Assembly (NCBI RefSeq): GCF_019216885.1
Contig: NZ_JAAQRC020000001.1
Location: 1 to 64,000, forward strand
DNA from: Methylobacterium sp. SyP6R
GTDB lineage: Bacteria; Pseudomonadota; Alphaproteobacteria; Rhizobiales; Beijerinckiaceae
Direction of reading: 5' to 3'
Length of the DNA stretch: 64,000 bases
The notes below the pieces were generated by a model. It was given only the letters and a program-made list of their open reading frames with translations, was not told the origin of the DNA and did not search any database. A program made the translations under genes and the position numbers. Below, in pieces: positions 8,839 through 62,687 of this stretch; the stretch's first letter is position 1, and the number at the start of each line of letters is the position of its first letter.

Positions 8839-9948
8839 TCAGCCCGGCCGCACGCCCCGGCGCCAGACGCCGTCCTCGCGCATCATGTTCATCAACAGGC
8901 CCTCGCGCAGGCCGCGATCGGCGATGCGCAGGCGCTCGGACGGGAAGGCGCGGCGGATCGCCTCCAGGATGGCGCAGCCGGCGAGCACCAGGTCGGCCCG
9001 GTCGCGGCCGATGCACGGGTTCTGCGCCCGGTCCGACAGCCGGGTCGAGAGCAGGCCGTCGATGGCGTCGGTGACCTCGCGGTCGCGCATCCACAGGCCG
9101 TCGATCCGCCGCCGGTCGTAGCGCGGCAGGCGCAGGTGGGTGGCGGCGAGCGTCGTCACCGTGCCGGAGGTGCCGAGCAGGTGGAAGTTCGGCGCATGCG
9201 CCGCGGCGCCAGCGATCAGCGCGAACTTGGTCAGGCGGTCGGCGACCTCCTCGACCATGCCCTCGAAGACCGGGCGGGTCACGTCGGCCCCGCCATAGCG
9301 CTCGGCCAGGGTGACCACGCCGACGGGGAGCGAATCCCAGGCGCGGATGCGCAAGGTCGGGTCGGCGCTGCGGGCGAGGGCGGCGGAGCCGTCGAGCCAG
9401 ACGATCTCGGTCGAGCCGCCGCCGATATCGAAGATCACCACCGATTCGGCGTTCCGGTCGGCGAGCGCCGCGCAGCCGGTGACGGCGAGGTAGGCTTCCG
9501 TGCGCCGGTCCACCACTTCGAGGTCGAGGCCGACCTCGCGGTGGACGCGCTCGACGAAGGCCTGGCCGTTCACCGCGAGCCGGCAGGCCGCGGTGGCGAT
9601 CGACTTCGACCGCACCACCCCGCGGGAGCGCATCTTGCCGAGGCACACCGCCAGCGCGTCGACGGTGCGGTCGATGGCGTCGTCGCTCAGGCGGTCGGTG
9701 CTGCCCAAGCCTTCGCCGAGGCGCACGATGCGCGAGAAGGCGTCGATCACCCGGAACCCGTAGGGCGCCGGCTCGGCGATCAGCAGCCGGCAATTGTTGG
9801 TGCCGAGATCGAGCGCCGCGTAGGCGCGCCGCTCGCTCCGGCGTGGGTCATGATCCTCCGCCACGCGTGGCGGAGGCGCGGTCGCGCGCGCTGTCTCGGC
9901 GTACTCCGCGGCGCGCGCCGGCACGGAGACGACCGTCTCATCCCTCAT
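8839..9948 (-). CDS. ppx: Ppx/GppA family phosphatase (exopolyphosphatase or pppGpp phosphohydrolase)
   Basis: Actin-like ATPase-fold enzyme that removes terminal phosphate from polyphosphate or from pppGpp. The 369-residue product has the phosphate-1 motif ALDLGTNNCRLLI and the phosphate-2 motif FDIGGGSTEIVW. It lacks the long C-terminal HD-like domain of E. coli Ppx, as is common in alphaproteobacteria. The N-terminal 40 residues are Arg/Pro-rich and outside the fold, so translation might begin a little later. The gene is followed by rlmE in the same direction. Which of the two activities dominates cannot be told from sequence. Confidence 0.9.
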   Translation of the reverse strand: MRDETVVSVPARAAEYAETARATAPPPRVAEDHDPRRSERRAYAALDLGTNNCRLLIAEPAPYGFRVIDAFSRIVRLGEGLGSTDRLSDDAIDRTVDALAVCLGKMRSRGVVRSKSIATAACRLAVNGQAFVERVHREVGLDLEVVDRRTEAYLAVTGCAALADRNAESVVIFDIGGGSTEIVWLDGSAALARSADPTLRIRAWDSLPVGVVTLAERYGGADVTRPVFEGMVEEVADRLTKFALIAGAAAHAPNFHLLGTSGTVTTLAATHLRLPRYDRRRIDGLWMRDREVTDAIDGLLSTRLSDRAQNPCIGRDRADLVLAGCAILEAIRRAFPSERLRIADRGLREGLLMNMMREDGVWRRGVRPG

Positions 9949-18524: not shown

Positions 18525-19414
18525 TTGATCGGCGGGCGCGGCAGCACGGCCTCGCCGGGCTCCATGACGTAGGTGTAGTCGAGGGCGTACCAGGGCGCCG
18601 TCGCATCGGCCGCCTCCGGATGCGGGCGATCGTGGCGCACGAAGTCGCCGACCAGCGCCTTGGTCACGCCGAACTGCACGTCGGAATCGATATGCGGGTC
18701 GTTGGCGTCGTAGACCTGCGAGATCAGCACCTTGAAGCCCGGCTTGAAGATCAGGGCATGCAGGTGGGCCGGGCGCATCGGGTGGCGGTCTTGCGCCGCC
18801 AGCAGCCGGCCGACGACCCCGTCGGTGGGGATCGGATAGCCGATCATCATCACCGAGCGGAACCAGAACCGGCCGTCGTCATCGGTGGTGAACTTGCCGC
18901 GCAGGTTCATCTCGGCCTGCTCGGGATCCTGGTTCTCGTAGAGGCCAACGGGCGAGGCGTGCCAGACATCGACCTCGGCGCCGGCGATCGGCCGTCCCTC
19001 GCCGTCGATCACCCGGGCATTGACGAAGAGCGGGTCGCCCGGCGTGTCGGAGCGCACGATGGTGCCGCCATTCTCGACCCGCGGCGCGTTGAGGCGCCAG
19101 AACGGCCCGAGCAGCGACTGCGAGGTCTCGGTGTTGCCGTGGTCGCCGTTGTTGAGGAGGCACACGAGGGAGGACACGCCGAGCGAGCCGGCCATCAGCA
19201 CGAACTCGTTGTGGGTGTCGGAGGCGAGCGCGCCGATCTCGTTGAGGATCGCGGTGGCGTCGCGGAACTCGGCCTCTGTGAGGCGCACGTCGCGGACGAA
19301 GCCGTGCAGATGGGTGATGAGCGAGGTCATGATCTCGCGCAGGCGCGGATCGCGCGTCCGCGCCATGACCTCCAGAACGGCAGGCGTCACGTCCTGCTGA
19401 CGCTCGATACGCAT
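18521..19414 (-). CDS. Intradiol ring-cleavage dioxygenase (hydroxyquinol/catechol 1,2-dioxygenase type)
   Basis: Non-heme Fe(III) dioxygenase, 297 residues. An N-terminal Dioxygenase_N helical domain (about 20-95) precedes the catalytic beta sandwich. The four iron ligands are visible: Tyr159 (VGLYENQD), Tyr193 (GYPIPTDG), His217 and His219 (RPAHLHAL). These features fit the hydroxyquinol and chlorocatechol 1,2-dioxygenase branch. It heads a four-gene leftward operon with an HpaH-like hydratase, an HpaI-like aldolase and an aldehyde dehydrogenase. The odd point is that those partners belong to meta-cleavage pathways, so an ortho-cleaving enzyme at the head is unexpected. The Met at 19414 starts homology. 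Confidence 0.9.
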   Translation of the reverse strand: MRIERQQDVTPAVLEVMARTRDPRLREIMTSLITHLHGFVRDVRLTEAEFRDATAILNEIGALASDTHNEFVLMAGSLGVSSLVCLLNNGDHGNTETSQSLLGPFWRLNAPRVENGGTIVRSDTPGDPLFVNARVIDGEGRPIAGAEVDVWHASPVGLYENQDPEQAEMNLRGKFTTDDDGRFWFRSVMMIGYPIPTDGVVGRLLAAQDRHPMRPAHLHALIFKPGFKVLISQVYDANDPHIDSDVQFGVTKALVGDFVRHDRPHPEAADATAPWYALDYTYVMEPGEAVLPRPPIK

Positions 19415-19730
19415 GGCTTCCGCCTCCCTGAATCTGCGCCCTGGTCCCATATCATCGATTATTCGTCAAGAAGCGATTGTGGAGATGCGGGATTCGGGCT
19501 CCCAAAGAGCACAGGATGCGACGCATCGGACCGCTCCCGTCGCCACCCGTGCTCGTGATGCGCCCGCCGTCCTGGGCACTCCCGGGCTGTCCCAGCCAAG
19601 GGTAAGCCCCCCTATTGAAAAAGGTTTTCTGACCGGCATCCACCGATCGGGAGAGGTCGGGCCTCCCTCCGGGGCCAAGTCGCATCCCGACCCGGTCCGG
19701 CGTCCGGCCGCAGGGACGGCGCTGCCGTGA

Positions 19731-19759
19731 TTGACAGATAAAATCGTTTTTCCTATGAA
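19731..19759 (+). promoter_or_regulatory. Sigma-70-type promoter for the GntR gene
   Basis: TTGACA (19731-19736), a 17-nt spacer, and TATGAA (19754-19759) lie just upstream of the gntR ATG at 19783. The -35 box is perfect, the spacing optimal and the -10 box matches 4 of 6. The rest of the 368-nt divergent spacer (19415-19782) shows no gene and should carry the leftward promoter and the regulator's operator. Confidence 0.65.
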
Positions 19760-19782
19760 TCGTCGACGAAGCGCTAAATCAC

Positions 19783-20556
19783 ATGTCGGGGGAGAGCGTC
19801 TTGACCGAGGCCAGGAGCCGACGCGCTGCGGGTGACCGGGACGGCATTCAGTCTGCCCTGGCCATGCCGGGCCCCGCCCTGGTCGACGACGGCAAGAACA
19901 CGATGGCGAGCCAGCTCGTCGATCGCTTACGCGAGGCGATCGTGTCCGGTCAGCTCGAGGCGGGCAGCAAGATCAACCTGGAGCGTGCCCGCGGCAGCTT
20001 CGGAGTCTCGCTCAGCCCGCTCCGGGAGGCGCTCGCCCGGCTGATCGCCGACGGCCTCGTGGTGTTCGAGGACAATCGCGGCTATCGCGTCGCGCCGGTC
20101 TCGCTCGCGAACCTCGAGGAGATCACGCGGCTGCGCGAGGAATTCGAGATCCTGGCCCTGCGCCAGGCGATCGCGATCGGCACCGTGGACTGGGAGGGCG
20201 ACGTGATGCGCGCCCTCCACCGCATGAACCGGACCGAGCGCGATCCGGAGCAGCCCGACACGCTGGAGCGGTGGGAGGCGTATCACCGCGAGTTCCACCT
20301 CACGCTGATCGCCGGGTGCCGCATGCCGCTGCTGCTCAATTTCTGCAGCGTGCTCCTGAGCCTGAACGACCGCTACCGCCGCTCGTTCCTGCGCCGCACG
20401 CCCGGGGGCGACCGCAACGTCGCCCAGGAGCATAGCGAGATCGCGCAAGGCGCGGTCGCCCGCGACGCCGACTTCGCCTGTGCCGCCTTGCGCGAGCACA
20501 TCCACCGGACGGGCACCAACCTGCAGCGGCATCTCGCCGACAGGCTCGCCCCGTAA
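19783..20556 (+). CDS. GntR family (FCD domain) transcriptional regulator
   Basis: A 257-residue regulator with an N-terminal winged helix (about 40-110: MASQLVDRLREAIVSGQLEA, SLSPLREALARLIADGLV) and a C-terminal all-helical FCD ligand domain. The latter has metal-type residues in REFHLTLIAGC and LREHIHRTGTNL. The N-terminal 38 residues are an extension outside the fold. It sits between the leftward dioxygenase operon and the rightward isomerase/transporter/dehydrogenase genes, so it probably controls both, responding to an aromatic or hydroaromatic acid. A clear promoter is at 19731-19759. Confidence 0.9.
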   Translation: MSGESVLTEARSRRAAGDRDGIQSALAMPGPALVDDGKNTMASQLVDRLREAIVSGQLEAGSKINLERARGSFGVSLSPLREALARLIADGLVVFEDNRGYRVAPVSLANLEEITRLREEFEILALRQAIAIGTVDWEGDVMRALHRMNRTERDPEQPDTLERWEAYHREFHLTLIAGCRMPLLLNFCSVLLSLNDRYRRSFLRRTPGGDRNVAQEHSEIAQGAVARDADFACAALREHIHRTGTNLQRHLADRLAP

Positions 20557-20591
20557 GCGCCAGCGCCTTCCCGATCCTTCGAGCGACCCTC

Positions 20592-21401
20592 ATGCATGCC
20601 TCCTCCGACTGGCCGCTCGGCCTGGCCCACTTCACCTGCATCGGGGTGCCGCCCGTCGACCTCGTCCGGCTTGCCGCCCGGACCGGCTGCGCCTCGGTGG
20701 GCCTGCGGCTCCATCCGGCCTTTCCGGGGGCTCCGTTCTACGAGCTGCCGCCCGGGAGCGACGCCTTCCGGGCGATGCGCCGGGCGCTCGCCGACGAGGG
20801 CCTTCGCGTCTACGACATCGAGTTCGTCGTCGTCGGGGAGGATTTCGTGCCGGCCTCGCTGTCCGGCATGCTCGAGGCCGCCGCGGGGCTCGGCGCCCGG
20901 CGCCTGAGCGTGTGCGGCGACGATGCCGACCGCCCGCGCCTCGTCGCGCGCTTTGCCGAACTCTGCGATCTCGCGGCCGGGTTCGGGATGGGAGTCGACC
21001 TCGAATGCATGGCCTGGCGCCGGGTCGCCAGCCTGCCCGACGCCGTCCGGGTGGTCGAGGCCGCCGGCCGGCCGAACGGCGGCGTCCTCGTCGACGCGCT
21101 CCACCTCGCCCGGACCGGCGGGTCGCCCGAGGACGTGCGCGCCGTGCCGCCTCACCTCATCCGCCACGCGCAGCTCTGCGACGCGCCGGCGCAGGCGCCG
21201 GACTCGACGGAGGCGATCATCCAGGAAGCCAGGGCGGGGCGCCTGCCCCCGGGCGAGGGGGCGCTGCCGCTGCAGGCGCTGGTCGCGGCCCTGCCGCCCA
21301 CGACCGCCCTCTCGATCGAGGTGCCGGTCACCGGCACCACCACGCCCGAGGACCACGTGCGGACGAACCTGGCCGCGGCCCGGCGCGTGCTCGCCGGCTG
21401 A
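20592..21401 (+). CDS. TIM-barrel sugar phosphate isomerase/epimerase family protein
   Basis: A 269-residue xylose-isomerase-like TIM barrel. Landmarks: LRVYDIEFVVVGEDF (strand with metal Glu), GMGVDLECMAWRRV (Glu), GGVLVDALHLARTGG (Asp/His) and HAQLCDAP. This superfamily includes 3-dehydroshikimate dehydratases of the AsbF/QuiC1 kind as well as sugar isomerases. In this neighbourhood (shikimate-type transporter, shikimate-dehydrogenase-like and type II dehydroquinase genes) a dehydratase making protocatechuate is an attractive hypothesis, but the active site alone does not prove it. It starts 36 nt after gntR and is likely cotranscribed. Confidence 0.8.
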   Translation: MHASSDWPLGLAHFTCIGVPPVDLVRLAARTGCASVGLRLHPAFPGAPFYELPPGSDAFRAMRRALADEGLRVYDIEFVVVGEDFVPASLSGMLEAAAGLGARRLSVCGDDADRPRLVARFAELCDLAAGFGMGVDLECMAWRRVASLPDAVRVVEAAGRPNGGVLVDALHLARTGGSPEDVRAVPPHLIRHAQLCDAPAQAPDSTEAIIQEARAGRLPPGEGALPLQALVAALPPTTALSIEVPVTGTTTPEDHVRTNLAAARRVLAG

Positions 21402-50325: not shown

Positions 50326-50734
50326 CCGACATGCTGATTCGCAGCGTCGGCAATGAAGCGAAGCTGGATGCCCGGGCCAAGGAACTCGCGAAGGAGGAAA
50401 GGCGGCTGATGGCCGAGCTCGAAGCGCTGCCAGACGTGCCGCAGATGGTGGCGCGGCATCCCGCAGCTATCGCCTCTTACGAGGAGGCGCTGGGACGGCT
50501 GGACGAAGCGCCGGACGCCTGCACCAAGGCCGGCGATCCGGAGCTGGCGTCCGCTCTCCGCGACCTCGTGGACACGGTCACGGTTGGCGGGATCCTGAGG
50601 TGAAGGGCGGCATCGAGGTAGAAATCTCAGGACGCCTGACTGCACTGCTCGGGCCTAAAGCTTATCCGAACAAGGTCCGTGCAGTGGGGGGACCTGATGG
50701 TAGCGGAGGACCGCTACATCAAGCGACCCACTAA
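50326..50734 (+). pseudogene. Serine recombinase C-terminal remnant
   Basis: The plus-strand sequence ITDMLIRSVGNEAKLDARAK, MAELEALPDVPQMVARHPAA, LGRLDEAPDACTKAG and LRDLVDTVTVGG matches the coiled C-terminal region of large serine recombinases. It then shifts frame near 50595 to continue GGIEVEISGRLTALLG, the family's usual beta-strand ending, and stops at 50734. The catalytic domain is missing. The left end is abutted against the portal remnant on the other strand, a recombination scar. Confidence 0.5.
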
Positions 50735-50813
50735 GGCGGAGCCGACGTTCCTGTTTCGTGCGAAGGCGGCTTGATCCGGGAACAGGCCTGATGCCGCAAG
50801 TCAGGCGGGGTTT

Positions 50814-57357: not shown

Positions 57358-57384
57358 GCCGATAGCGCCATTACCGCCATTAGG
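57358..57384 (+). repeat. Tandem 9-bp repeat array 1 (3 units)
   Basis: GCCGATAGC, GCCATTACC, GCCATTAGG in direct succession. First member of the left pair; the next array starts exactly 85 bp later. Non-coding, preceded by CTGT as in array 4. Confidence 0.85.
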
Positions 57385-57442
57385 TGGCCGATTTCGGCTT
57401 TCCGAATGATCCTGCGGCTTTCGTGCTTTCCCCACCTCACGT

Positions 57443-57469
57443 GCCAATAGTGTCATTAGCGCCGATAGG
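57443..57469 (+). repeat. Tandem 9-bp repeat array 2 (3 units)
   Basis: GCCAATAGT, GTCATTAGC, GCCGATAGG in direct succession, same strand and phase as array 1. The 465-nt spacer that holds arrays 1 and 2 (57186-57651) shows no gene. Confidence 0.85.
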
Positions 57470-57651
57470 TGGACGAAGAAGGCGGCATGCAGCCGTAGGC
57501 GCGGCACTCCAGCGCTTTGAAGACGAGGCACCAAGACCGCTCGCCACCATTGGTGATATGCTGATTGCTGGAAGCTAGCTCAGCCAGGAGATGCGGCGCA
57601 CCGCGCTACGCTCCTCGAAACGGTCGCAGGCTGGAAGGTTTAGATCGTCCG

Positions 57652-57927
57652 ATGACCTCCGCTGCGAGTTCCTGGGGGCCCTTTGATCCGCACCTCGACG
57701 AGGCCGAGCGCCGCGCTCGCCTGCGCTGTCTTCGTGGCCTTGCCCGCGTCCTGTCCGGCCCGCGCGCCGCTGACCTCTGCAACCACCTCGCCGCGGCCGA
57801 GCATGATGCAAGCGCCCTACCCCTCGCCCTTGCCGCCCTGGACCGCATGCCTTCCGTCGATCGCCGGCAGATCGTCGCGACCTACGGCGCCGTTCACCGC
57901 CCCGCTGCCGAAGGAGATGTCGAGTGA
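57652..57927 (+). CDS. Small hypothetical protein, first of the rightward operon
   Basis: A 91-residue helical protein: WGPFDPHLDEAERRARLRCL, RGLARVLSGPRAADLCNHLA and AALDRMPSVDRRQIVATYGA. ATG at 57652 begins the sensible part. It overlaps the next gene (GTGA). It is the first of seven closely packed small genes that run to 59867. No family recognised. Confidence 0.65.
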   Translation: MTSAASSWGPFDPHLDEAERRARLRCLRGLARVLSGPRAADLCNHLAAAEHDASALPLALAALDRMPSVDRRQIVATYGAVHRPAAEGDVE

Positions 57928-58406
57928 GTGCCGCCGCCGCCTTCGATAGCGACAGGTTTCGGAAGTGCATGGCCCTCGCCATCGGCGGGGCGACAGAAGG
58001 CGAGCGCAAAGCGGGGCGAGCTGCCGCCGCCCGTGTGGCCGTGGCCGCCGGCCTGTCGTTCGAGGAGGCGGAGCGCCGCGCAGGTCGGGGTTTCGATCCG
58101 GGCGGCTTCGAGGACGCCTTATCGGAAGCCGTGTCGCGCGGTGCGGCCGAAGCTGTCGCCGAGGCGATGCGGAAGGCCAGGGAAGCCGCAGCACATCAGG
58201 AGGCCCTTCGCGACGAGGAGCGCCGGGAGGCCGCCAGGGAGCGCCGCCGTCAGGCAAAGGCCGCAAAGCAAGCATGGGCCGCCGCCGAACACGAGATGGC
58301 CGAGTGGCCCGAGCGCGCCAAGGCTGAGCAAGCCGAGAGGGACCGCTTGTGGGCCGAACAGCGCGCGGCGCGACAGGCCGCCGAGACGATAGGAGCGAGC
58401 ACATGA
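57924..58406 (+). CDS. Coiled-coil hypothetical protein
   Basis: A 160-residue protein with GTG start overlapping the previous stop. The N-terminal 85 residues are a small helical domain (FRKCMALAIGGATEGERKAG, VAAGLSFEEAERRAGRGFDP). From residue 95 to the end it is a long, highly charged Glu/Arg/Ala coiled coil (EALRDEERREAARERRRQAK). It overlaps the next gene by ATGA. Likely an element-specific structural or DNA-associated factor. Function unknown. Confidence 0.7.
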   Translation: MSAAAAFDSDRFRKCMALAIGGATEGERKAGRAAAARVAVAAGLSFEEAERRAGRGFDPGGFEDALSEAVSRGAAEAVAEAMRKAREAAAHQEALRDEERREAARERRRQAKAAKQAWAAAEHEMAEWPERAKAEQAERDRLWAEQRAARQAAETIGAST

Positions 58407-58746
58407 CCGAACCCCGCACCGCCTATCACGCCGGATTGTGGGACGCTGTATTGGTCGCCGTCGGCGCGGCCGATGCGATCGAGGCTCGGCCCGATGCCTC
58501 CACCTTGCGCCAGCGGTCCGCTGCGGAGGCCCTGCGCGGCTTTGCCGACGGCATCCGCGCCAATCTCCTGCCTGAGCCCCGAAACCCTGTCCTTGAGGCC
58601 CTGAGGGCAATTCGCGCCGAGCCGGGCGAGGAAGGCGAGATCCGTGTCCCGAGTGCGCCGGCCGGCTGCACTGGACGAGAGACCCGGGCAACGGCCATGT
58701 ATGGGGCCAGTGTGAGACTGACGATTGCCTCAGGTGGATGCAATGA
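58403..58746 (+). pseudogene. Small helical protein plus zinc-finger tail, apparent frameshift
   Basis: The first frame gives MTEPRTAYHAGLWDAVLVAV, GAADAIEARPDAST and LEALRAIRAEPGEEGE. Then the recognisable continuation is in another frame: CPECAGRLHWTRDPGNGHVW and GQCETDDCLRWMQ, ending TGA at 58744-58746, just before the next gene at 58783. The C-x2-C...C-x4-C pattern is a zinc ribbon that should be the C-terminus. A 1-nt indel around 58620-58645 separates the two. Staying in the first frame would run 139 nt into the DUF5681 gene. Either a frameshifted pseudogene or a programmed or sequencing shift. Confidence 0.6.
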
Positions 58747-58782
58747 CCCCTGTATTCCACCTGCACATGCAGGAGACGAACC

Positions 58783-59202
58783 TTGGCTAAGGCAGGCACA
58801 TTCCCGAAAGGGCAGAGTGGGAACCCTGCCGGCAAGGCCAAGGGCACCCGCAATCGTACGACCATGGCTATGCAGCAACTACTTGAGGGCGAGGCGGAGA
58901 AGATCACCCGCAAGGCGGTAGAGCTGGCCCTGCTCGGCGATACCGTCGCCATCCGCCTGTGCATGGAACGCCTGGTGCCAGTTCGGAAGGATCGGCATGT
59001 GCAATTCGACCTGCCGGACATCGAGAACGCGGGCGACATTCCGAAGGCAACCTCTGCCTTACTGAAGGCCGTTGCGTCGGGCGAGATCACGCCCGCCGAG
59101 GCCGCCGACATCGGCCGCGCCGTGGACGCTCACCTGAAGGCGATCGAGACGCACGAGCTGACCGAACGCCTCAACCGCCTGGACGGAGCCGACGATCAAT
59201 GA
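58783..59202 (+). CDS. DUF5681 domain protein
   Basis: A 139-residue protein with the DUF5681 opening KGQSGNPAGKAKGTRNRTTM, followed by LLEGEAEKITRKAVELALLG and DTVAIRLCMERLVPVRKDRH. The C-terminal part is helical (SGEITPAEAADIGRAVDAHL). DUF5681 proteins occur near phage packaging genes. The start is TTG at 58783 with AGGAGA six nt upstream; no ATG is available. It overlaps the following small gene (ATGA). Confidence 0.85.
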   Translation: MAKAGTFPKGQSGNPAGKAKGTRNRTTMAMQQLLEGEAEKITRKAVELALLGDTVAIRLCMERLVPVRKDRHVQFDLPDIENAGDIPKATSALLKAVASGEITPAEAADIGRAVDAHLKAIETHELTERLNRLDGADDQ

Positions 59203-59441
59203 GCCTCGCTGCCCTACACCGCCGCCTTGACCAGATCGAACGCCAGCGCGGCATGAGCGGCGCCATGGAGCAGATGAGCGACGCGCAGCTGTGGCGCATC
59301 ATCCGCCGGGGCTACCCCGTCCTTGTCCAGGAGCACGGAAGCCTGCCCGCCGCCGTCAGGCACCTTCGAGCGACCGGCGATGCCGGCCTTGCCGACATTA
59401 TCGAGGAAGACACCGGGGGCGCCGATGCTGTCCGCCATTAA
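59199..59441 (+). CDS. Small hypothetical protein (tandem paralogue 1)
   Basis: An 80-residue protein: MSLAALHRRLDQIERQRGMS, then SDAQLWRIIRRGYPVLVQEH and LRATGDAGLADIIEEDTGG. Its N-terminal coiled segment (SLAALHRRLDQIE) resembles that of the genes at 59425 and 59625. Overlaps the DUF5681 stop. Function unknown. Confidence 0.65.
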   Translation: MSLAALHRRLDQIERQRGMSGAMEQMSDAQLWRIIRRGYPVLVQEHGSLPAAVRHLRATGDAGLADIIEEDTGGADAVRH

Positions 59442-59628
59442 ACGCTGCATCGCACGGCTTGAGCAGCGCGACCGTGGCCGGCTTCGTGGCGTACATCGCT
59501 ACAGCGACGAGGAGTTGGACGGGCTGATTGCCTGGCACCAAGACCTCGACCCGGGCCGGGCGGATCTCGACCAAGCCCGCGAGGAATGGGCCCTTGACCT
59601 CATGCGCAGAGAAGGGTTGATCCGATGA
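59425..59628 (+). CDS. Small hypothetical protein (tandem paralogue 2)
   Basis: A 67-residue protein: MLSAIKRCIARLEQRDRGRL, then YSDEELDGLIAWHQDLDPGR and EWALDLMRREGLIR. It shares the short N-terminal helix plus SD-E-L-I layout with its two neighbours. It overlaps the previous gene by 17 nt and the next by 4 nt. Confidence 0.6.
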   Translation: MLSAIKRCIARLEQRDRGRLRGVHRYSDEELDGLIAWHQDLDPGRADLDQAREEWALDLMRREGLIR

Positions 59629-59867
59629 GCCTTGCAGACCTTCGCCGCCGTCTTGAGCGCGTCGAGGCTATCCACGTCGTCGAGGCGCCGCGGGCGATCC
59701 TTGCCGATCGGCCGATGAGCGACGAGGAGGGCGCCGCCGCCCTCCGGGACTGGCGCAAGTGGGCGGCCGATGGCCGGGCGAGCCTTCACCGGGGCATCCT
59801 GTACATCGCGGAACCGCGTTCGCCGACCGAGGCCGAGTGGGCGGCGGATCACCTCCAGCCGCACTAA
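59625..59867 (+). CDS. Small hypothetical protein (tandem paralogue 3)
   Basis: An 80-residue protein: MSLADLRRRLERVEAIHVVE, then MSDEEGAAALRDWRKWAADG and SPTEAEWAADHL. Its N-terminus is very close to the gene at 59199. It ends convergently with the HGG-type gene, the two stops overlapping by 4 nt. Confidence 0.6.
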   Translation: MSLADLRRRLERVEAIHVVEAPRAILADRPMSDEEGAAALRDWRKWAADGRASLHRGILYIAEPRSPTEAEWAADHLQPH

Positions 59868-60139
59868 GCGCCGCTCAGCGCCCCGAGCAGGTCGCGAGTG
59901 CTCAATTGCAGCCGCCGAACCTCCGCCCGCAGGGCCGCAGCCTCCTTGGTCCGTAGGCCATCCCGATACCGGCCGTTGGCCTCACCCTGCGGTGCGCCGC
60001 TTCCCTGGGCGCCGCCGTGCATTCGGCACCGGCGCTTCCCGCTCACTGCCGGCGACCGGCATTCGATCCCCTGCCTGGTCTTGGCACAGCATCGGGGCGC
60101 TAGGCGGAATGGCGTGGGTTGCCGGGCCAGTGAGTGCAT
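59864..60139 (-). CDS. HGG-motif basic protein
   Basis: A 91-residue Arg-rich protein with a Cys-containing middle (CCAKTRQGIECRSPAVSGKR) leading into CRMHGGAQGSGAPQGEANGR. That is the HGGxxGxGxPxGxxNG motif of small element-borne HGGX proteins, and here the run of Cys/His may bind zinc. A C-terminal helix (ALRAEVRRLQLSTRDLL) follows. Its first 158 nt overlap the end of the upstream gene in another frame. ATG at 60139. Confidence 0.7.
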   Translation of the reverse strand: MHSLARQPTPFRLAPRCCAKTRQGIECRSPAVSGKRRCRMHGGAQGSGAPQGEANGRYRDGLRTKEAAALRAEVRRLQLSTRDLLGALSGA

Positions 60140-60794
60140 GGGGTTGATGTTCCTTTTCGAGAGGCCCCCCGGGGTTCGGGGCGGTGACGCTGCCGACGAT
60201 GGCTTGGCCGCCCTGGTAGACGTGGACGTGCTCGACCCGGACCGTCTGGGCTCCACTGCGCCGGAGCTTCGCCAAGGCCTCAAGCTGTGTCGTGTAGGTG
60301 CGCAGCATCTTCGTGGCGAGTGTCCCGGCCGCCTCCATCCGGGCGGGGCTGTCTGTGGTCGCAGCCTGCGACAGGCAACGCATGGCAAGGTGATGGGTCG
60401 CGGCCATCTGAACGGCAAGTTGGCCCTCTATCTCGTTCTCGGGCCGGACCGCATCGACACCGGCGAGCATCGCGTTGAGGGCGAGCTGCGGCGTCGGGTT
60501 GTCCTTGGCGATCATGACGGTGAGCTTGCTCAGCTGCGCCACCGCAAATTCGTCGGACCGGCTGCCCATCGCATCGGAAAGACGAACCAGCCAGCCCCGC
60601 GGATCATCGTGCGGTGATCCCAGGTCCGTCCCGCCTTCCGGTCCGACTTCGAGGGAGGCAGACACTGGAACGTGCCACGCAGTACCCCGGGCATCCGCCG
60701 CCAGCATTCGAGCGGTTTCCTCATCGGAGCACTTCGGCCTCGCCGGCCGCTTCCTCGACGCCTTAGCCGCCGCCGGTTGTTCCTGCTTAGGCAT
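59982..60794 (-). CDS. Hypothetical element-borne protein
   Basis: A 270-residue protein. A basic N-terminus (SRKRPARPKCSDEETARMLA) is followed by a helical core (FAVAQLSKLTVMIAKDNPTP, MAATHHLAMRCLSQAATTDS, LATKMLRTYTTQLEALAKLR), then VEHVHVYQGGQAIVGSVTAP and a loose Pro-rich tail. The EHVHVYQGGQAIVG strand is a recurrent feature of a mobile-element protein family in Methylobacterium-like genomes as far as I recall, without known function. The last 158 nt overlap the HGG gene in another frame. Confidence 0.65.
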   Translation of the reverse strand: MPKQEQPAAAKASRKRPARPKCSDEETARMLAADARGTAWHVPVSASLEVGPEGGTDLGSPHDDPRGWLVRLSDAMGSRSDEFAVAQLSKLTVMIAKDNPTPQLALNAMLAGVDAVRPENEIEGQLAVQMAATHHLAMRCLSQAATTDSPARMEAAGTLATKMLRTYTTQLEALAKLRRSGAQTVRVEHVHVYQGGQAIVGSVTAPNPGGPLEKEHQPHALTGPATHAIPPSAPMLCQDQAGDRMPVAGSEREAPVPNARRRPGKRRTAG

Positions 60795-60830
60795 GGTCGG
60801 TGACCCGTTCTGGGTTGAAATACTTGATCT

Positions 60831-61283
60831 TCAATCAAGCCGCCGCACCCGCGACCCCGGCCCGCAATGAGCCTCCCGCTCTACCAACCCGCGCTTAGCC
60901 AGGAGGACGATAACCCTCGACGGATTGGCTGCCTCACCAGCCCTGCGGGTTGGCCTGACCGTGTTCGGCGATCGAGGAGCTTCCCACCGCAACCGCCACC
61001 GACGCACCCGCTCCCGCTCCCGCTCCCCAATCTGAGCTTCCCGCACGGCGATTCCACCAACGGCGAAGTGATGCCCGGCCGCGACAAGTTCCCGGAGATG
61101 GGCGATCTGCGCGCGGTTGGCACGGTCGAAATGCCGTTTCATCCTCTCGGCGCGACCGATCGGCAGCGGCCCCATGACGGCCAGAACCTCAGCCGGCGTG
61201 TGCCAGCGCGGCGCCCCGCCCTCGTCGAGGCGCACCAGGGCCGACAGGAACGCCCCTTGCCTGATCCCCAGCCCGCGGCTCAC
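60831..61283 (-). CDS. Hypothetical basic protein
   Basis: A 150-residue Arg-rich protein with GTG start at 61283, eight nt after the stop of the upstream gene and preceded by GAG. It begins with a helical segment resembling winged-helix proteins (RQGAFLSALVRLDEGGAPRW, TPAEVLAVMGPLP) and ends with SRVIVLLAKRGLVEREAH. That gives two possible HTH-like units separated by a charged linker. No family identified. Part of the leftward operon. Confidence 0.6.
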   Translation of the reverse strand: MSRGLGIRQGAFLSALVRLDEGGAPRWHTPAEVLAVMGPLPIGRAERMKRHFDRANRAQIAHLRELVAAGHHFAVGGIAVREAQIGERERERVRRWRLRWEAPRSPNTVRPTRRAGEAANPSRVIVLLAKRGLVEREAHCGPGSRVRRLD

Positions 61284-61291
61284 ATCGGCTC

Positions 61292-62272
61292 CTAAGTGTA
61301 GGATTGCTCATCAAGATCTACTCCGGATTGCGCTTCGTCAGCAAGCCAGAAGCAGTCCTCAATGGGCTTGGTATAGCGAAGGGGCGCAGCGTTCTTGCGA
61401 ACGCTCCTCGTAGCTTGGACAACAGCTTCATTTATTTCAACGCCCTGATGCGCCAGCATCGCTGCCTCACTGATAATCTCGTCACGCAAATCATCTGGAT
61501 GATGCCGCGGAACAGCCAGAGTGACGGCTGCCAAGAGCGCATGCCCAGCCGCTCGTGGCGAAGCGGTCGCCAGCACAGACCCGCTTGGACGCACCGGTTC
61601 AGTTTGCTTTGTAAGGCGCTGTGTCCGTGGAGTCCGGCGGCGAGGTTTGGCACGAGCAGCGCGATTGTGGAATGCTGCAACACACGGTGATTTTTTATAT
61701 CCTTCTGACGGCGGGCAAAATTTCTGAGGCCGCCCTCTCCAGATACGCGTGATTTTCCCGCAGAACTGACAACTTGGTTTTTCTTCCTCGTTATCGTCTT
61801 CATAAATTGTCTTGATTTCCTCACAAGATACAACGGCGTGCGCCGCAGATTTTGCCTCAGCCCGCGCTTTCCTTCTGATTTCACTATTACGCCGCTCGCG
61901 GAAGCGTTGCGCACAAGAATATGATGTTGAAGTTTTTATCCAAGAACAAAAACGTTGCGGTTTACCGTTCCAAATCCGTGTGGGCTTTCCACAAAACTCA
62001 CAAGTCGGCGGCTCTGCGGGCTCGGGCACTGATCGCGTCTCAACCACAACAGGCGCCGGTTGGGCCGCTTGGTTTGCGTACCGCGGTACAGAGATTGCCT
62101 CAAAGCTCCACAGAGACCGCAGTCCAGCAGCGTCCGCGGCGTGCGCCTGCGCTATGGCGGCTTGGTAGGCTGCTTGTTGCTGTGCGACGGCAGCCCACCG
62201 TTCGGCTTGTGCCGCCTGCTCTTCTGCGGATCGGATCAACCAATCCGCTTCGGCGGGGTTGCGAGGCATCAT
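61292..62272 (-). CDS. Two-zinc-motif hypothetical protein
   Basis: A 326-residue protein, first of the leftward operon. An N-terminal Ala/Gln-rich helical domain (SAEEQAAQAERWAAVAQQQA) is followed by two internal repeats: CEFCGKPTRIWNGKPQRFC about residue 90 and CQFCGKITRIWRGRPQKFC about residue 170. Each continues to a fourth Cys (YSCAQRF, SPCVAAF), so each can bind zinc. A basic linker separates them, and a C-terminal region (HHPDDLRDEIISEAAMLAHQ) resembles phage sigma-like or regulatory tails. Start at the ATG 62272 is preferred to the TTG at 62323. Family not recognised. Confidence 0.7.
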   Translation of the reverse strand: MMPRNPAEADWLIRSAEEQAAQAERWAAVAQQQAAYQAAIAQAHAADAAGLRSLWSFEAISVPRYANQAAQPAPVVVETRSVPEPAEPPTCEFCGKPTRIWNGKPQRFCSWIKTSTSYSCAQRFRERRNSEIRRKARAEAKSAAHAVVSCEEIKTIYEDDNEEEKPSCQFCGKITRIWRGRPQKFCPPSEGYKKSPCVAAFHNRAARAKPRRRTPRTQRLTKQTEPVRPSGSVLATASPRAAGHALLAAVTLAVPRHHPDDLRDEIISEAAMLAHQGVEINEAVVQATRSVRKNAAPLRYTKPIEDCFWLADEAQSGVDLDEQSYT

Positions 62273-62557
62273 CTTCAAGCGCCCTCTGATCTGATAGGGC
62301 GCAAGGATGCATAAATCAGTCAATACCGATCAATTATCCGAGATATGGACCCACATTAATTTTTGCGCGTCGCCTTGGTCTCAATTTGATTAATGCATCA
62401 AAATATTCACATAAGATCACTCTTATTCGAGCTTCAATTTTCATACGGACACCAATTGGCCTATCGCCCGGTCAAGCTAGCTAGCGGCTTCAGGCTCGTT
62501 CGCAACCGAGTTGGCTTAGGTCCAGGGTCGATCGACGTAGACAGACCGCCCTCCCCT
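62273..62557. other. AT-richer gene-free stretch upstream of the zinc-motif gene
   Basis: About 285 nt without a convincing gene. It should carry the promoter of the leftward operon. It borders the right pair of tandem repeat arrays. Confidence 0.4.
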
Positions 62558-62602
62558 GCCGATAGCCCCCTACCGGCCAATAGCGCCATTAGTGCCGGTA
62601 GG
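62558..62602 (+). repeat. Tandem 9-bp repeat array 3 (5 units, last 3 conserved)
   Basis: GCCGATAGC, a degenerate CCCCTACCG, then GCCAATAGC, GCCATTAGT, GCCGGTAGG. The last three (from 62576) form the conserved trimer, and array 4 starts exactly 85 bp after that trimer. Confidence 0.85.
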
Positions 62603-62660
62603 TGCGGATCTCGTCCTACCCGGACGCCTTGAAGCGCCTTCGCTCATACCGGCTCTCTGT

Positions 62661-62687
62661 GCCGATAGTGCCATTACCGCCTTTAGC
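62661..62687 (+). repeat. Tandem 9-bp repeat array 4 (3 units)
   Basis: GCCGATAGT, GCCATTACC, GCCTTTAGC. Second member of the right pair. It is preceded by CTGT and lies 142 nt upstream of the small gene at 62830. Confidence 0.85.

Follow-up and report, generated by a model that had tools for sequence, protein, structure and literature searches.

What are the short tandem repeats that stand in pairs around a small gene cluster near the start of contig NZ_JAAQRC020000001.1 of Methylobacterium sp. SyP6R, and which protein would read them? The window analysed here comprises the first 64,000 nucleotides of that contig. The original prediction had described in it four non-coding trimers of a 9-bp unit, arranged in two pairs that we call array A (near 57.4 kb) and array B (near 62.6 kb), and had offered Cox/Xis or integrase-arm sites, plasmid iterons and a cooperative repressor operator as explanations. 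We consider it probable that the trimers are iterons of the replication-initiator helicase of a single mobile element, with a further cluster at 86.3 kb as its origin and the two pairs in the window as distal sites of the same specificity.

A sequence scan recovered all four trimers on the plus strand, together with the two additional units described ahead of the third trimer, one of them degenerate, and the start-to-start distance of 85 bp was measured in both pairs (Table 1). A 27-mer IUPAC model of the trimer, allowing at most one mismatch, was run on the whole 7.5-Mb genome and gave eight matches, all at 57.3–86.6 kb, against none for the reversed control pattern; moreover, no match at the score of the eight trimers occurred in 20 mononucleotide shuffles of 112 kb (the shuffled controls for the genus loci, further loci, WGPF loci, distal scans and plasmids described below are of the same kind). 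This search had been proposed as a check, and the trimers are not scattered. A wider model of the unit, GCC-NN-TA in 9-bp steps and usually with GT in front, likewise gives eight trimers genome-wide and no match for the reversed control.

The third locus accounts for the pairs in the window. It occupies 86325–86619, where one trimer faces three, and starts 38 bp past the stop codon of an open reading frame (ORF; ending at 86287) that matches DUF3987 in Pfam (E = 6.8e-63) and 'DNA helicase' in PHROG. A separate Toprim_3/DUF7146 ORF lies ahead of the helicase gene, and a large serine integrase gene comes after it. This order of primase, helicase and repeats is that of a mobile-element replicon. 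In Methylobacterium soli (G006), a trimer and an inverted one stand where the homology to the helicase ends, and their 52-bp offset is the same. The pairs in the window lie 24 and 29 kb from the 86.3-kb cluster.

The DUF3987 helicase is predicted to have an MCM-like AAA+ ATPase core and, at its C-terminus, a winged helix: the predicted structure matches over the ATPase core, and only the MCM family appears among the 50 matches listed in a structure search in which the winged helix was not submitted alone. By sequence, no credible relative was found in the PDB (best E = 0.15). Cch, the sister protein of Cch2 of the staphylococcal cassette chromosome (SCC), is MCM-like too. Among the loci compared, the similarity of the helicase C-termini tracks the repeat unit. 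Of 29 loci, 26 entered the Mantel test, five of them with weak arrays; it left out L153 and L215 (near duplicates) and L280 (a match broken by stops); L156, L158, L169, L171, L217, L276, L279 and three repeats were never in the set.

The association of 9-bp repeats with this helicase extends well beyond the window's genome. Two helicases, the DUF3987 one and RepA of the phage-plasmid pVL1_6, served as queries against 99 genomes of the genus and found matches in 31 and 25 of them, respectively; the genus scan took the loci that reach the C-terminus, namely 20 of 30 for DUF3987 and 24 of 30 for RepA, 23 of which were scored, as one RepA was too short. In the 340 bp after the end of the DUF3987 homology, no tandem period is stronger than 9 in 18 of the 20 loci; period 9 reaches z ≥ 3 in 14 of 20 directly 3' of the helicase, in 0/20 inside the gene and in 0/19 further downstream. 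Of 19 further loci, taken from genomes of the same order, from named genomes and from viral contigs, 12 reach z 3.0. These 19 were drawn from three sets (6/21 of the first, 8/8 of the second and 5/6 new ones of the third) and include three that are the same genes as in the genus scan; those left out were mostly repeats of genes from the genus-wide helicase search, with L277 (a weak Desulfoluna match) and L212 (which repeats L268). The unit is GTGCCNNTN in the group to which the helicase of the window's genome belongs, and other DUF3987 loci carry others, including CCGACNNTR, CGTTTTGCG, CTGACRAAA, CCCCCAAAA and CACTTGACC. Two sets of repeats, as runs of at least two units on both strands and often as an inverted pair, occur in 18 of 29 loci, and eight loci of a group at 65% identity have a further trimer directly ahead of the helicase start. 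In 26 of the 29 loci, the most AT-rich 40-bp window of the 320 bp 3' of the helicase exceeds that of the gene itself (median 0.57 versus 0.47).

Of the alternatives in the original prediction, plasmid iterons are the best supported, because the same units stand 3' of the DUF3987 helicase here and other 9-mers are so placed in relatives. We infer from the sequence that the helicase binds the units, that its origin is at 86.3 kb and that the distal copies answer to the same protein. The winged helices would sit next to one another, each on a 9-bp unit, helicase rings would assemble on the origin at 86.3 kb, and replication would start there; three units facing three might, speculatively, fit such an assembly of rings. 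The pairs in the window would either keep more helicase bound or draw the origin towards themselves, and may serve copy control or origin pairing, or may link replication with the transcription of the gene sets beside them.

The same element is present in Methylobacterium terricola (G078), with homologous blocks between 58748 and 88508 and the 57.4-kb region on a second contig, and both pairs of the window are found there, as the proposed comparison with a relative had called for. Of 134 positions in the arrays, 125 (93%) are the same in both species, against 387 of 499 (78%) for the surroundings, which comprise 315/419 plus two flank stretches of 10/11 and 62/69 (p = 1.2e-5, Fisher test). In array A, each trimer with its GT keeps 27 of 29 positions; in array B, the additional units lie inside a 47-bp block with 46 identities, and the second trimer keeps 25 of 29 positions. 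That the units are better kept than the spacers is a pattern such as protein-binding sites would give. The claim that the arrays are non-coding holds in both species, array A lying in no open frame common to them. As had been noted, the 58-bp spacers within the two pairs are unlike each other, with 18 of 58 positions identical against a shuffle mean of 16.3; identity at chance level rules out the simple duplication of one locus as the source of the two arrays. The proposal that the spacing was selected is weakened: the distance is 85 bp in both species at the 57.4-kb site, but 85 and 87 bp at the 62.6-kb site, which rules out a strict 85-bp rule, and the trimer offsets at the third locus are 52 and 108 bp, so that exactly 85 bp is no general rule.

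Several results weigh against the iteron reading. No strong array was found in 6 of the 20 and 7 of the 19 DUF3987 loci, and kinship among loci makes the locus counts, and the Mantel test as well, too favourable. Spacers between inverted arrays have an AT content of only 0.27–0.52 in 10 of 12 loci (with edges set by hand; 0.40 in the window's genome), and by this measure an AT-rich melting region between them is mostly absent. RepA-type helicases are not supported as carriers of the 9-bp rule (4 of 23 loci); their loci also have repeats, but these keep no constant 9-bp spacing. Among four DUF3987-bearing plasmids, only pBT01 has a strong array; RHOAph has a two-unit inverted repeat only, which does not score, and no array was found in the Sulfitobacter and Crinalium plasmids. 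A distal set is seen in only four of the eight elements in which both helicase and integrase were seen (the window's genome and M. terricola counting as one). Finally, the pairs in the window are direct, not inverted, and the helicase gene is 22 and 27 kb away from them.

In pBT01 of Bartonella tribocorum (L323), which also carries repC, a DUF3987-type gene (19247–20866) lies beside a Toprim gene and is followed by GTTTTGAAG arrays (z 5.7) and inverted copies. Methylobacterium phage-plasmids of the Toprim/RepA type have their own repeats directly 3' of the helicase, at 8884–9020 in L148 (GGTGGGG) and 9748–9871 in L150 (CGCAACA), with no single fixed spacing. Parts of the window's gene sets occur in 23 known plasmid records; no GCC-type trimers were found at threshold in the five of them examined, two of which have other repeats at the helicase. 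In a wide pattern scan of viral contigs, most of the 80 loci listed (L027–L106) look, untranslated, like long collagen-like coding repeats; L038 appeared relevant.

The main rival to a role in replication is an operator role, to which we give a minor though real chance: the pairs at 57.4 and 62.6 kb would be promoter-proximal sites through which the helicase or another regulator, such as the helix-turn-helix protein encoded at 83051–83311, controls the flanking gene sets, and the likeness to the 86.3-kb cluster would reflect a shared regulator. Both pairs are indeed non-coding and upstream of gene sets, array A preceding the rightward set and array B having the leftward set on one side and a small rightward gene on the other, and paired, direct, side-by-side sites would suit cooperative repressors. 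However, no sigma-70-like promoter was found in 57–63 kb (a weak test, with 0.6 expected in shuffles), and arrays of the same kind stand 3' of the helicase genes of many elements and follow the helicase type.

It is improbable that arrays A and B are functionless remnants of old origin clusters, left behind after an exchange of modules. Such a history might be suggested by the position of array A 183 bp before a WGPF-type gene, since pVL1_6 has its helicase repeats directly before a WGPF homologue; no helicase gene directly precedes array A. The WGPF-type gene occurs in 53 of the 99 genomes, with at least eight copies 3' of a helicase by coordinates, and arrays with z ≥ 3 lie upstream in 7 of 30 WGPF loci (including those of the window and of M. 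terricola) against 1 of 30 controls (medians 1.2 versus 0.6), several with private units. Yet in M. terricola the sequence around both pairs has changed significantly more than the pairs themselves (p = 0.0025 at the 57.4-kb site and 0.006 at the 62.6-kb site), which speaks against relics.

We regard as very improbable that the arrays are integrase-arm or excisionase (Xis/Cox) sites, which the original prediction had put forward. Distal arrays do tend to lie near integrase genes: array B is 0.9 kb from an integrase ORF, as predicted in distance, although the 210-aa ORF matches only the C-terminal part of the Phage_integrase model; in Methylobacterium durans (G019) a distal array lies 0.2 kb 3' of the integrase gene, and in two akin viral contigs, L282 and L283, the distance is 0.3–0.4 kb, with 0 matches in five shuffles each. 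None was found in L278, L284, G085 or G090; integrases were found by a motif scan that may miss some, and distal matches scoring 20 of 27, in L281, L285 and G090, were not counted, those of L285 and G090 seeming to be coding. However, arm and Xis sites lie within a few hundred bp of the core of the attachment (att) site, and no such proximity was found: in M. durans the arrays are 1.6–2.9 kb from the 59-bp att repeats, and in the window's genome an array is 1.8 kb from the tRNA-Met end (arrays A and B not being part of this measurement). Moreover, the same type of unit accompanies a serine integrase in the window's genome (G000) and tyrosine integrases in G019, G085 and G090. As a side observation, L283 has two types of unit, CTGACAAAA and CCCCCAAAA, next to each other at its distal sites (1591 and 15358), as if an earlier specificity had been kept. 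That the units are coding repeats, V-P-x or G-T-N triplets mimicking DNA sites, is scarcely credible: in several elements they do lie in frame within a small ORF at the helicase-adjacent site, but the arrays of the window are non-coding in both species and the 86284–86730 ORF shows no codon-position bias, with 14, 17 and 16 changes at codon positions 1, 2 and 3 relative to M. terricola; because these are so even, the 86.3-kb stretch does not look as if it is kept as a protein.

Phage P4 offers a precedent for iterons at a distance, having initiator sites at ori and at a second site some kb away, crr, the latter built of direct repeats. The present system is like P4 in combining initiator sites at an origin with a distant direct-repeat site; it is unlike P4 in that Toprim and helicase are separate genes here, whereas P4 alpha is one primase-helicase protein. 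The third locus may be compared with the Staphylococcus aureus pathogenicity islands (SaPI) and Gram-negative phage-inducible chromosomal islands (PICI), for which the parts of the literature consulted describe an origin directly 3' of the initiator gene, with two iteron sets around an AT-rich region (PMC6092414), and a C-terminal domain of SaPI Rep and of SCC Cch2 that reads the repeats (PMC7581432). Repeats directly 3' of an initiator helicase gene, and two sets of them, are thus common ground, found at 86.3 kb and in most relatives, and the predicted winged helix, with a C-terminus whose similarity tracks the unit, would correspond to the reading domain. The differences are the DUF3987 helicase, the 9-bp units in trimers, spacers that, measured with hand-set edges, are mostly not AT-rich, and the pairs in the window, which are not helicase-adjacent at 22 and 27 kb. 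In SCCmec, the C-terminal domain of Cch2 likewise binds direct repeats just 3' of its gene; the helicase families are others, the short repeats number three, and distal arrays are not mentioned in the portion consulted (PMC7581432). In the PICMI satellites of Vibrio, two markers, one of them DUF3987, are used for the gene of replication, which goes under the name of primase, and deleting that gene in PICMI115 (marker unspecified), of 6.1 kb, lowers replication; the word 'iteron' does not occur in the text available to us (PMC10803314). We read the system as working like SaPI/PICI and SCC rep–ori modules with another helicase family. We do not class it as a PICI, because the two measures of AT content point different ways and the comparison covers sequence features, with the gene order compared by inspection. 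In the literature outside subscription journals, as far as it was accessible, no description of 9-bp iterons at DUF3987 genes was found. Helicase-adjacent origins are known; two extra sets so far off are unusual.

Table 1. Coordinates of the repeat arrays and of the genes around them
Feature	Position	Strand	Details
Distal array A, first trimer	57358..57384	+	units GCCGATAGC GCCATTACC GCCATTAGG, GT directly before
Distal array A, second trimer	57443..57469	+	starts 85 bp after first
Additional units ahead of third trimer (n = 2)	62558..62575	+	second degenerate
Distal array B, first trimer	62576..62602	+	
Distal array B, second trimer	62661..62687	+	starts 85 bp after first
Third-locus trimers, outside window	86325, 86377, 86485, 86593	+, -, -, -	genome scan
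Toprim_3/DUF7146 ORF	83781-84731		ahead of and separate from DUF3987 ORF
Small WGPF-type gene	57652..57927	+	follows array A at 183 bp; neither PADLOC nor NCBIfam gave a match
DUF5681 protein, rightward gene set	58783..59202	+	E 9.3e-12
HGGxSTG-domain protein, leftward gene set	59864..60418	-	NF041373 E 1e-9
Leftward gene adjoining array B	61292..62266	-	no credible family match; longer 5' version sub-threshold only
Tyrosine-integrase C-terminal ORF, 210 aa	63607..64239, past window end	-	PF00589 E 1.3e-7, model positions 103-169 of 172

The element occupies at least 57.25–88.51 kb of the chromosome. In M. terricola its right end lies inside an intact tRNA-Met(CAT) gene, the serine integrase frame running into the tRNA 3' end; in the window's genome a tRNA fragment (88464–88506) is followed by a 73-bp stretch (88507–88579). 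This stretch recurs in M. terricola (G078:C49:60178-60250, 73 bp, 97%) and at G099:C101:21517-21576 (60 bp, 98%) and looks like the end of another mobile element. The left end and left attachment site were not found, the common sequence reaching at least 57.25 kb. At 50600–50760 of the window is the apparent 3' end of a second serine recombinase, with 13 bp in common with the integrase end at 88464; further left there may be a related element or what is left of one. In M. durans, perfect 59-bp direct repeats (G019:C1 1415461-1415519 and 1469908-1469966) bound a 54.5-kb prophage-like element that encodes an integrase as well as a DUF3987 helicase. In the window's genome, the element holds two large ORFs of 1213 and 725 aa, both leftward (G000:C1 72604-78419), for which Pfam has no match; a direct comparison found no DNA similarity of 57.3–62.8 kb to known phages, and nine proteins of the gene sets gave no PADLOC match that would point to a defence function.

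More broadly, and tentatively, DUF3987 may be a widespread class of MCM-like initiators that load themselves; winged helix and 9-bp trimer code would change in step, so that every type of prophage or phage-plasmid in the Alphaproteobacteria has an origin of its own, and arrays tens of kb away, often by an integrase gene, would be long-range partners like crr of P4, coupling the control of replication to integration or excision. DUF3987, a large family that Pfam still lists as of 'unknown function', would thereby gain a testable role, and the origins of unannotated prophages, satellites and phage-plasmids could be found by looking directly 3' of a DUF3987 gene for 9-bp trimers. Private units would, in addition, predict which elements can co-reside in one cell, and the conserved distal arrays reopen the question, familiar from P4, of what initiator sites far from the origin are needed for.

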